Below are positions 5,375-57,592 of a stretch of 64,000 nucleotides of DNA, in pieces (positions within the stretch are counted from its first letter, which is position 1; each line of letters opens with the position of its first letter). The notes beneath the pieces were generated by a model that made no database searches, was not told the origin of the DNA, and was given only the letters and a program-made list of their open reading frames with translations. The DNA comes from an uncultured Synechococcaceae cyanobacterium (GTDB lineage Bacteria; Cyanobacteriota; Cyanobacteriia; PCC-6307; Cyanobiaceae): the NCBI GenBank assembly GCA_902634405.1, contig CACPJY010000001.1, forward strand, positions 124,001 to 188,000, written 5' to 3'. The position numbers and the translations under genes are program-made.

Positions 5375-5836
5375 CTAACTTCTGTCTGGCAGATCTGGAG
5401 TTTGATGTAATAAACGATTAAGCCTTAATCTATCTGCATTAAGAGGATCTGGAGCCAATTCACCAGCCAATTCTCGGAATTTTCGCTCGACTTCTTCTGG
5501 CACCCTCACTTCAAAAATTCTTTCCATTAAGGCTTCTATAGAAAAAAGGTGGGCATTTATAGTCTCAAGGTCTGAAATAGCTTGATGCAAGGAATCAGCT
5601 TGATCCTGAACAGAACTATCAGTGGTTTTAGCCAAAGAAGGATCTTTCCCTGAACAAGCAAAGTTACTTTGCTTGTTCAGATCTTCTATGACACGCCCTG
5701 CGAGTGTTCTAAAAGATTGCAAGGCTGCCCAACTTTGCTCTTGTTGTTGACGCAAGGTTGGGAATTCCCTGATTAAGCGATCATGCTCATGGTAAAACCT
5801 TTGGCAGTCAGGGCATTGACAAGGCTCTTCAGGCAC
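5375..5836 (-). CDS. unknown small protein with N-terminal CxCxxC
   Basis: A 153-residue protein whose family I do not recognise. It starts at GTG and opens with a cysteine cluster, CQCPDC at residues 6-11, which could bind a metal. A largely helical, Gln/Leu/Glu-rich segment follows (about 20-55 and 75-145). Residues 53-63 (LNKQSNFACSG) are encoded by a perfect hairpin with 14-bp arms (5650-5680), and the adjacent stretch up to about residue 80 is Ser/Asp/Lys-rich and looks like a flexible linker. It lies 38 bp downstream of the 109-residue unknown gene on the same strand, so the two probably form an operon. Convergent with glgP. Confidence 0.7.
   Translation of the reverse strand: MPEEPCQCPDCQRFYHEHDRLIREFPTLRQQQEQSWAALQSFRTLAGRVIEDLNKQSNFACSGKDPSLAKTTDSSVQDQADSLHQAISDLETINAHLFSIEALMERIFEVRVPEEVERKFRELAGELAPDPLNADRLRLNRLLHQTPDLPDRS
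5650..5680. repeat. perfect in-frame palindrome (14-bp arms, 3-nt loop)
   Basis: CTGAACAAGCAAAG at 5650-5663 is followed by TTA (5664-5666) and then its exact reverse complement at 5667-5680. A further GATC/GATC pairing lies outside across a small bulge. It is inside the coding sequence for residues 53-63 of the 153-residue unknown protein. A 14-bp perfect stem with a tiny loop is far beyond chance expectation for a 64-kb window. Confidence 0.95.
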
Positions 5837-6883: not shown

Positions 6884-7654
6884 TTGATAAAGAAAATGAA
6901 ACCAAATGTGAATCGAAAAATTTCAAAACAAAGAATCAACCAACTAAAAGAGCTGTTGAAAAGGATAAATATATACAAAACGCTTAATATAAATGAAAAA
7001 AATATAGGGTCCAAGAATTTCTCTGCTTTTGATGAAGCTCTAACACATACTTCAGCTCAAACATCAATTAATCATGAACGTTTGGAATTTCTAGGAGATG
7101 CAGTTTTACGTTTGGCTGCCTCTGAATTTATTGAGAAGAACTTCCCTCAAATGAATGTAGGACAACGCTCAAGCCTACGTGCGCAATTGGTTAGTGATAA
7201 ATGGCTTGCAGACTTAGGAGAATTAATAAAGATAGAGGATGCTCTTCTTATCAGCTCGAAGGCTAAAGAAGACCTAGCAGCTAAAAAAACTATTCATGCT
7301 GAAGCTACTGAAGCACTAATTGGTGCCATCTATGAATTCTCGGAAAGCCTTGATCCAATAGATCTTTGGCTTGCTCCACATTGGCAAAAAACCAGTAAAG
7401 ACTTCTTAAATAATCCTCAAAATTACAACTCTAAATCTGCCCTTCAAGAATGGAGTCAGTCACATAATCTAAATCTTCCACAATATAAAACTGAAGAGAT
7501 AAATAAGCAGCATGGGGACAAGAACAGATTCTTTTGTGAGGTATGGTTAAATGAAAAATTAGCTGGACATGGTTGGGGAGGCTCAAGAAAGGAAGCGGAG
7601 CAAAATGCTGCCCTTAACAAACTCCACAACCTTTCGAATGAAAATCTTTTATAA
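6884..7654 (+). CDS. rnc: ribonuclease III
   Basis: An endonuclease that cuts double-stranded RNA, mainly in rRNA processing. The catalytic domain carries the signature ERLEFLGDAVLRL (about residues 66-78) and the second acidic site HAEATEALIGAIYE (about 140-153). A C-terminal double-stranded-RNA-binding domain ends in GWGGSRKEAEQNAALNKL. At 256 residues it is slightly longer than average because of a basic, Lys/Asn-rich N-terminus. The annotated first ATG and an ATG five codons later are both possible starts. It follows rnpB by about 75 bp, placing two RNA-processing genes side by side. Confidence 0.95.
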   Translation: MIKKMKPNVNRKISKQRINQLKELLKRINIYKTLNINEKNIGSKNFSAFDEALTHTSAQTSINHERLEFLGDAVLRLAASEFIEKNFPQMNVGQRSSLRAQLVSDKWLADLGELIKIEDALLISSKAKEDLAAKKTIHAEATEALIGAIYEFSESLDPIDLWLAPHWQKTSKDFLNNPQNYNSKSALQEWSQSHNLNLPQYKTEEINKQHGDKNRFFCEVWLNEKLAGHGWGGSRKEAEQNAALNKLHNLSNENLL

Positions 7655-9970: not shown

Positions 9971-11875
9971 TTATTCAACGGTTACACTTTTCGCGAGGTT
10001 TCTTGGCTGGTCTACATCCAGACCCCTATGTGCAGCTATGTGATAACTCAAGAGCTGCATTGGAACGACTGAGAGAAGAGGACTAACCAATTCACTCACT
10101 TCTGGCAAAGGTAAAAGAGCATCAAAAAGGTCAGTATCTGGTCCCTTAGGGGCTACACCAATTAATTTTGCATCCCTCGCTTTTGCCTCTTGTGCGTTGC
10201 TTAAAACCTTCTGAAAAACCAACCCTGGAATAGCAATAGAAATAACTGGGACTCTTGGATCGAGTAAAGCAATAGGACCATGCTTCATCTCTCCAGCAGG
10301 ATATCCCTCTGCATGAATATAACTAATTTCTTTAAGCTTCAAGGCTCCTTCTAAAGCAATGGGATAGTTAATGCCCCTCCCCAGAAAAATCACATCCTTC
10401 GTATCCGCGAATCGATGCGAAAGAGTTTCCGAAAGTTCGTCATGAAGCTCAATTAAGTTTCTTAGATGTTTGGGAACCTCTCTTAATTCATCTATAACCT
10501 TCAAAATCTCTTGAGATGATCTGCTTCGACGACGAGCAGCAAACATTAATGAAAGGCCATAAAAAGCTAGCAACTGCCCTAAAAAAGTTTTAGTGGCAGC
10601 AACCCCTACTTCGATTCCTGCACCTATATCCAAAACATTTGAAACTTGCCTAGCTAAAGAACTGTCGGGTCGGTTAGTAACCCCAAGTTGACGAGAAGCA
10701 AAAGCAGGATCGGCATATGCATTTCTCCTCTCAGCCTCCATAGACATCGCAGCAAGTGTGTCAGCAGTTTCACCTGACTGAGTTACTCCAATGGTCAAAG
10801 TATTAGGTGCTAAAGGAGGAGGGGCATAACGAAATTCACTGGCATAAAAAACTGTTGTAGGAATCCCTGCAAATTGCTCCAACAAATAAGCACCTACCAT
10901 CCCTGCATGACGACTAGTCCCACAAGCCAATATTTGAATTCTTTCAATACCATCATAAAAAGAATCTTCAAAGGGCAAAGCAACAGGGGTATCAAGAGGA
11001 AGGCCTATTGGTAAATGCCTTGATACCCATAATTCAGCTGTTTCTGACTGCTCATGAATTTCTTTAAGCATGAAATGACGAAAATTTCTCTTATCAACTA
11101 CATGATCAAAAGTGCTTAATAAAGAAGGGTTACGTTCTTGCCTGACCCCTTTTTCGTTATACAGCTCTATACCCAAAGGGGTTAACAAACCCACTTCTCC
11201 ATTTTGCATAGGCAGAATTGTTCGGGTAAAGCCTGCTAAAGCAGGTGTATCGCTGGCACACAGAAATTCTCCTTCTCCAAAACCAATTAATAAAGGGGCT
11301 TCCTTCCTTGCGACAACTAAAGCATCAGGTGTTTTTGACCAAACAACAGCAATTGCATATGCCCCTTTGAGTTTTAAAAGCACGCTCTGTACTGCTTTTA
11401 AAAACATTGATCTACTAGGACTAGTCCCATCTTGCTGAAGTAGATCAAGCTCCAAAGAAAGGAGATGAGGAATGACCTCTGTATCAGTTTCCGAAACAAA
11501 CTCGACACCTTCTTGTTCTAAAAATTCCCTCAAACCTCTGTAATTCTCAATAATTCCATTTTGAACAACTGCAATCTCACCGGAAGTATCTCTATGAGGA
11601 TGAGCATTCAGTTCATCTGGCTTGCCATGAGTAGCCCATCGAGTATGGCCTATGCCTATATGACCAGGGGAACCCTTGGATTCAACTTTCAACGAAAGAT
11701 TTCCAAGCTTGCCTTGAGCACGTCTACATGTCAGGGTTCCCTGACATGTAGACGTGCTGATATTAACAGTTGCAATACCAGCAGAGTCATACCCGCGATA
11801 TTCCAATTGTCGTAGACCCTCTAAAAGCAGTGGTGCTGCCTCTCTAGAGCCAATGACTGCAACTATTCCGCACAT
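9971..11875 (-). CDS. glmS: glutamine-fructose-6-phosphate aminotransferase
   Basis: Makes glucosamine-6-P from fructose-6-P and glutamine, the entry to peptidoglycan and LPS amino sugars. I start it at the ATG at 11875 because the mature enzyme needs Cys2 (MCGIVAV) as the N-terminal glutaminase nucleophile; the frame is open 11 codons further upstream. Class II amidotransferase (to about residue 240; HTRWATHG) and two SIS domains (CGTSRHAG, SQSGETADT; ending LAKSVTVE). Residues 40-53 are encoded by a perfect 42-bp palindrome. The half encoding GTLTCRRA resembles the usual family sequence and the half encoding STSTCQ is its inverted copy. A terminator-like hairpin with a T tract lies 5 bp before the start. 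It follows psaC. Confidence 0.97.
   Translation of the reverse strand: MCGIVAVIGSREAAPLLLEGLRQLEYRGYDSAGIATVNISTSTCQGTLTCRRAQGKLGNLSLKVESKGSPGHIGIGHTRWATHGKPDELNAHPHRDTSGEIAVVQNGIIENYRGLREFLEQEGVEFVSETDTEVIPHLLSLELDLLQQDGTSPSRSMFLKAVQSVLLKLKGAYAIAVVWSKTPDALVVARKEAPLLIGFGEGEFLCASDTPALAGFTRTILPMQNGEVGLLTPLGIELYNEKGVRQERNPSLLSTFDHVVDKRNFRHFMLKEIHEQSETAELWVSRHLPIGLPLDTPVALPFEDSFYDGIERIQILACGTSRHAGMVGAYLLEQFAGIPTTVFYASEFRYAPPPLAPNTLTIGVTQSGETADTLAAMSMEAERRNAYADPAFASRQLGVTNRPDSSLARQVSNVLDIGAGIEVGVAATKTFLGQLLAFYGLSLMFAARRRSRSSQEILKVIDELREVPKHLRNLIELHDELSETLSHRFADTKDVIFLGRGINYPIALEGALKLKEISYIHAEGYPAGEMKHGPIALLDPRVPVISIAIPGLVFQKVLSNAQEAKARDAKLIGVAPKGPDTDLFDALLPLPEVSELVSPLLSVVPMQLLSYHIAAHRGLDVDQPRNLAKSVTVE
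11717..11758. repeat. perfect 42-bp palindrome inside glmS (20-bp arms)
   Basis: The 20-base arm at 11717-11736 (begins AGCACGTCTA, ends CAGGG) is followed by TT (11737-11738) and its exact reverse complement at 11739-11758. It covers exactly 14 glmS codons (Ser40 to Ala53). Pairing stops sharply on both sides. No second copy of the sequence was seen in the window. Confidence 0.99.
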
Positions 11876-57127: not shown

Positions 57128-57592
57128 ATGAATGACATTCGTTTAATTGAACATGCACCTGGAGCGCCAGGCCTCAGATGGTTTGGTCTAGGACCAAACC
57201 TACAACCCGCTAATGGTCTTGAAAAACTAAAGCTTTTATTTGACCATCATTCCTTCTGGGCAAAACAAAGATCGTATAAACAGTTAAGGCAAATGCTTGC
57301 TGGAAGTTCCGTGATCGTTACTGCTTGGGATGGAAAACAAATTGTTGGGTTTGGGCGAGCAACCAGTGATGGGATTTTCCGTGCAGTTTTGTGGGACATA
57401 GTTGTCCTTGAAGAACTTCAAGGACAAGGCATAGGTAAAAAAGTCCTTCAATCCCTATTTAATTCAAAAGCAATCAATCAAGTTGAGAGAGTTTATCTAA
57501 TGACCACAAATGGCGCTGATTTCTACCGCCAATTGGATTTTGAGGACGTAACTAAACAAAAGTTACTTTGGCGAAGACGTAAAAACTATTAA
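57128..57592 (+). CDS. GNAT-family acetyltransferase
   Basis: A 154-residue N-acetyltransferase. Acetyl-CoA-binding motif [20 protein letters not shown] (about residues 96-115), preceded by [18 protein letters not shown]. The N-terminal [18 protein letters not shown] is typical of the cyanobacterial/plastid members of the family, some of which acetylate protein lysines or N-termini. Substrate unknown. The codons for RWFGLGPN contain a 9-bp hairpin (57180-57200), likely chance. Ends just before tRNA-Gly. Confidence 0.88.

Follow-up and report, generated by a model that had tools for sequence, protein, structure and literature searches.

Template switching is an established process in yeast genes, where it homogenises the arms of inverted repeats and inverts their spacers (PMC8604942). 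Most of the yeast events change one residue, and the extreme case changed five neighbouring residues (PMC8604942). In prokaryotes, a small excess of inverted repeats of 6-9 bp in coding sequences has been ascribed to template-switch ('sequence-directed') mutagenesis (Ladoukakis and Eyre-Walker 2008, as summarised in PMC4060949). Much longer coding palindromes are found in the mitochondria of Nematomorpha, with arms of up to 142 bp, positions that are often common between species, and conserved residues encoded by both arms (PMC6649704). Finally, the Rickettsia palindromic elements, according to the account given of them in PMC6649704, are dispersed insertions that place a palindrome in frame within a gene.

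The glmS palindrome described here, and the coding inverted repeats that accompany it in the same genome, can be set against each of these systems. As in the yeast template-switch or quasipalindrome-correction mutations explained by the Ripley model, the repeats are perfect, have short spacers and homogenised arms, and come with clustered codon changes in a gene that is otherwise intact; unlike in yeast, glmS had about six loop residues replaced and shows no prior quasi-palindrome. The likeness to the repeats of Ladoukakis and Eyre-Walker, as far as PMC4060949 reports them, lies in a coding excess attributable to the same mutagenesis, but the arms here measure 12-22 bp and exceed codon shuffles about 40-fold. 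Perfect inverted repeats in functional genes, for which template switching has been proposed, are also the point in common with Nematomorpha, whose palindromes are far longer, have two conserved arms and often share positions, whereas the glmS arms span 20 bp and one of them is variable. The glmS palindrome sits in frame like a Rickettsia element but, in contrast to those elements as PMC6649704 presents them, it is single copy and added nothing to the gene.

Results

The glmS palindrome is exact, unique, and far beyond chance

The window, i.e. the whole 64-kb stretch of DNA analysed, comes from a Prochlorococcus-like cyanobacterium and encodes a glmS product that matches the E. coli GlmS structures 4amv and 2j6h over its full length. 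The features concerned are the following:

9971..11875, minus strand: glmS (glutamine--fructose-6-phosphate aminotransferase), an ORF of 634 aa counted from MCGIV, with Pfam GATase and SIS domains
11717-11758, within the minus-strand gene glmS: perfect palindrome of 42 bp (arms of 20 bp, centre TT)
11717..11736, minus strand: conserved arm and putative source, encoding most of Thr47 to Ala53 (TLTCRRA)
11737..11738, no strand: centre of 2 nt (TT on the plus strand)
11739..11758, minus strand: arm probably overwritten, encoding Ser40-Gln45 and part of Gly46 (STSTCQG)

The two arms pair at 20/20 positions across a 2-nt spacer, and the palindrome lies in frame over the 14 codons from Ser40 to Ala53, numbered from MCGIV, exactly as the initial annotation had described it. 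It is the longest of the close inverted repeats of the window, and the 42-mer has a single copy in the assembly, where its only further match is itself on the opposite strand. We found no exact match to the arm in viral contigs. The exact fit to 14 codons looks like a coincidence, since other coding palindromes of the genome do not all start at a codon boundary or have a length divisible by three, and we dropped the idea that it has a special meaning.

One could imagine that point changes accumulated by chance into a palindrome, and the hypervariability of this GlmS loop would give them room to do so. Yet when the codon order in 1.28 Mb of the genome's own coding DNA was shuffled 20 times, the longest arm at spacers of 0-8 reached 16 bp, against 20 paired positions out of 20 in glmS. 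The claim that the stem is too long for chance thus stands, and a build-up of point changes is extremely unlikely. We conclude that the palindrome is genuine, occurs once in the genome, and lies well outside the range of chance.

One arm replaced a variable linker of unchanged length

Most clade members share an eight-residue linker between the conserved IATV/LATV and LTCxRA motifs, and 25 of 30 aligned relatives show no indel across the palindrome. The E. coli linker is five residues shorter, a shortfall relative to the whole clade that predates the palindrome. Since most close relatives have a loop of the same length, the sequence was replaced rather than added, which rules out the insertion or duplication in frame that had been suggested at first. 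An in-frame mobile palindromic element of the Rickettsia type has next to no probability: the position in frame within a coding gene would suit it, but there is no second copy that could form a dispersed family, no gain of length over relatives, and the other coding palindromes of the genome differ in sequence.

The two arms differ strongly in conservation at the protein level. Relatives share a mean amino-acid identity of 0.65 with the 3' arm (TLTCRRA), close to the 0.68 of the flanks, and of just 0.19 with the 5' arm (STSTCQ), in agreement with the earlier view that the GTLTCRRA half is GlmS-like and the STSTCQ half its inverted copy. This asymmetry is consistent with copying from the 3' arm into the 5' arm, and by itself is no proof of it, since variability of the loop extends to all relatives and a low identity of the 5' arm would be expected from any cause. 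In G002, the GlmS linker (L027) is enlarged by a repeat-like stretch, QAVGDGGAVDGAAVDGGAFDGALG, which indicates that the loop tolerates large changes.

The proposed comparison with relatives found the palindrome in none of 84 other homologous sequences, where the longest perfect close inverted repeat is 8 bp. The perfect repeat is therefore a derived state, with one arm matching the presumed ancestral sequence. Its age can only be bounded: the closest sequenced relatives of the region have ~74% DNA identity, the genome collection containing no second member of the genus, and the palindrome would have arisen after the split from them. The event had been called recent, and this holds in the sense of younger than that split. 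Around the glmS axis, the fraction of paired positions in relatives is 0.22, no higher than the background of 0.25, so no ancestral quasi-palindrome is visible that could have seeded the switch, and on these alignments we do not file glmS under the quasipalindrome-correction sub-type.

The hairpin shows few marks of a selected element

The hairpin itself could have been selected for an effect on glmS expression, exerted at the RNA or DNA level by attenuation, as an RNase III site or through ribosome pausing. The predicted stem is very stable (-42.9 kcal/mol for a 96-nt fold, z -6.8), and the nearby rnc invoked by the initial annotation does exist about 4 kb away, although its proximity is meaningless by itself:

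6884-7654, plus strand: rnc-like ORF with an RNase III signature, NHERLEFLGDAVLRL, otherwise ordinary

The case for pausing or RNase III cleavage extends as far as this predicted stability. Against a selected role, all relatives compared lack the hairpin and similar palindromes occur in unrelated genes and positions. An intrinsic terminator or a known structured RNA can be ruled out, as no T-run follows the stem on either strand and the hairpin matched no Rfam family. We regard selection for the hairpin as improbable, and prefer to see it as a by-product of mutation that is neutral or nearly so.

Coding inverted repeats are in excess across the genome

The glmS palindrome had been considered an unusual event. 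We searched ~1.55/1.56 Mb of the genome, read in stretches with ORFs called mechanically, using the shuffled-codon control that had been recommended, and it proved to have company: ORFs (1.28 Mb) contain 22 perfect inverted repeats with arms of at least 12 bp and spacers of 0-8, against ~0.5 in codon shuffles. With arms of at least 11 bp, the coding sequence has 48 inverted repeats versus 7 mirror repeats. When coding and non-coding sequences are taken together, the density of inverted repeats peaks at spacers of 0-8 and drops with distance. Coding cases besides glmS include:

5650..5680, minus strand: second coding palindrome of the window, with 15-bp arms and a 1-nt centre, in a conserved 153-aa ORF (5375-5836, minus strand)
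57402..57427, plus strand: third coding inverted repeat of the window, with 12-bp arms and a 2-nt centre, in ORF 57128-57592
yqeG-like gene: 19-bp arms
DUF3086 gene: 17-bp arms
ribE-like gene: 16-bp arms, 13-nt spacer
asnB-like gene: 15-bp arms
trpE-like gene: 15-bp arms
L273:9933-11006, xseA-like gene (exonuclease VII large subunit): palindrome with 14-bp arms

The palindrome at 5650..5680, aligned with three relatives, falls in a variable region with small indels. The xseA-like host is itself the gene of a single-strand nuclease. Very long perfect hairpins also occur between genes (L176:19185-19245, L200:16397-16452, L192:3648-3699 and L155:19282-19332; arms of 23-29 bp, spacers of 3-6), with similar ones in G031 (29 and 26 bp); part of them are terminator-like and part are not.

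Other genomes help to place these densities. G031, a single contig that is 99% complete, has 18 coding inverted repeats per Mb at arms of at least 12 bp versus 17/Mb (17.2/Mb) in the source genome, with arms of 21 and 18 bp in two genes. One of its TP_methylase-family genes (L230:12541-13887) contains two coding inverted repeats, with arms of 21 and 15 bp. Mirror repeats with arms of at least 11 bp number 9 in G031 and may be low-complexity sequence. One coding inverted repeat of G040 has 22-bp arms. In E. coli K-12, 393 kb of coding sequence yielded 3 at arms of at least 11 bp, i.e. 7.6/Mb versus 37.5/Mb here, a difference of about 5-fold (p=0.0009), and again 3 at arms of at least 12 bp, where the contrast is weaker (7.6/Mb against 17.2/Mb). 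We found none in other cyanobacterial loci (124 kb coding, p=0.012) and none in high-light-type Prochlorococcus, for which the sample covers only 42 kb (p=0.21).

These densities bear on the possibility that the palindrome was created by amplification, library preparation or assembly, e.g. as a chimera formed by fold-back during phi29/MDA amplification of a single cell. MDA produces inverted chimeras, the source assembly is fragmented (40 contigs, 78% complete, 0.09% contamination), and it may come from a single cell, as does a neighbour from the same sampling (G028). A simple fold-back would not, however, be expected to rejoin the gene in frame and at the right codon, leaving its length unchanged and conserved GlmS sequence on both sides. 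The same class of palindromes being equally dense in the closed genome of G031 further disfavours an artefact, to which we give little credence.

Two anatomies of coding inverted repeats

Where relatives could be aligned, the repeats fall into two types. In the overwriting type, a conserved arm pairs with one from a variable stretch, the 5' arm/3' arm identities being 0.19/0.65 in glmS, 0.20/0.47 in yqeG and 0.71/0.12 in the TP_methylase gene of G031. In the correction type, both arms are conserved in the protein and relatives already pair above the background of ~0.25: 0.56 in DUF3086, 0.44 in trpE (aligned with three relatives), 0.36 in the G031 gene L235:4409-5566 and 0.39 in a gene of G040. 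Both anatomies are expected outcomes of template switching combined with selection on the protein.

Discussion

A number of arguments favour the hypothesis that the glmS palindrome results from replicative template switching, a known mutational process, followed by purifying selection, and we hold this to be very probable. First, the repeat has the perfect pairing and short spacer that such a switch leaves. Second, the linker kept its length while a conserved arm faces an overwritten one. Third, the relatives compared lack the repeat. Fourth, coding inverted repeats are in excess throughout the genome and equally dense in G031, and other genes show the overwriting or the correction anatomy. 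From these observations we infer the polymerase steps, the seed of the switch, its timing and the selective filtering. While copying glmS, the nascent strand would have left its template just past the TLTCRRA codons and either turned back to pair with itself or switched to the sister strand. The 20 nt just made would have served as template before the normal one was resumed with no net change in length, such that, in the glutaminase domain of GlmS, about 20 nt of a hypervariable loop were replaced by the reverse complement of the adjoining conserved codons. Purifying selection could then have retained the change, as it left the reading frame, the length and the conserved half untouched. With the nearest relative ~26% diverged, the ancestral sequence and an origin in a single step stay putative. 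The glmS event is probably one of a population of events in the lineage, comprising corrections of quasi-palindromes and overwrites of variable loops.

The processing of hairpins could differ in these genomes. For SbcCD, a hairpin nuclease, searches with the SbcD model gave no match in the source genome or in G031, and those with the SbcC model gave none in the source genome and, in G031, only scraps far under the cut-off that are probably other ATPases. The absence from the source genome alone says little since it is 78% complete. Strong SbcC and SbcD matches, close together, are present in the larger-genome relative G075, while G094 and G060 have no real SbcC match and G026 has no proper match to either model. 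In the part of the literature consulted, E. coli SbcCD is known for its action on long palindromes, and to make its loss the cause of palindromes of some 40 bp is thus speculation.

A probable and known replication error appears to have replaced, at constant length, some six codons in the gene of an essential enzyme, an overwrite that alignment-based tests would take for a rapidly evolving loop. With the genome-wide palindromes, the rate of such events becomes measurable in marine cyanobacteria with reduced genomes, and a connection with the apparent SbcCD loss can be put to the test. Tentatively, and with more doubt than confidence, we suggest that this clade of marine picocyanobacteria, where SbcCD genes went undetected, may have a raised rate of length-preserving template switching, and that loop overwriting could be a regular source of multi-residue change in their proteins, those of essential genes included.
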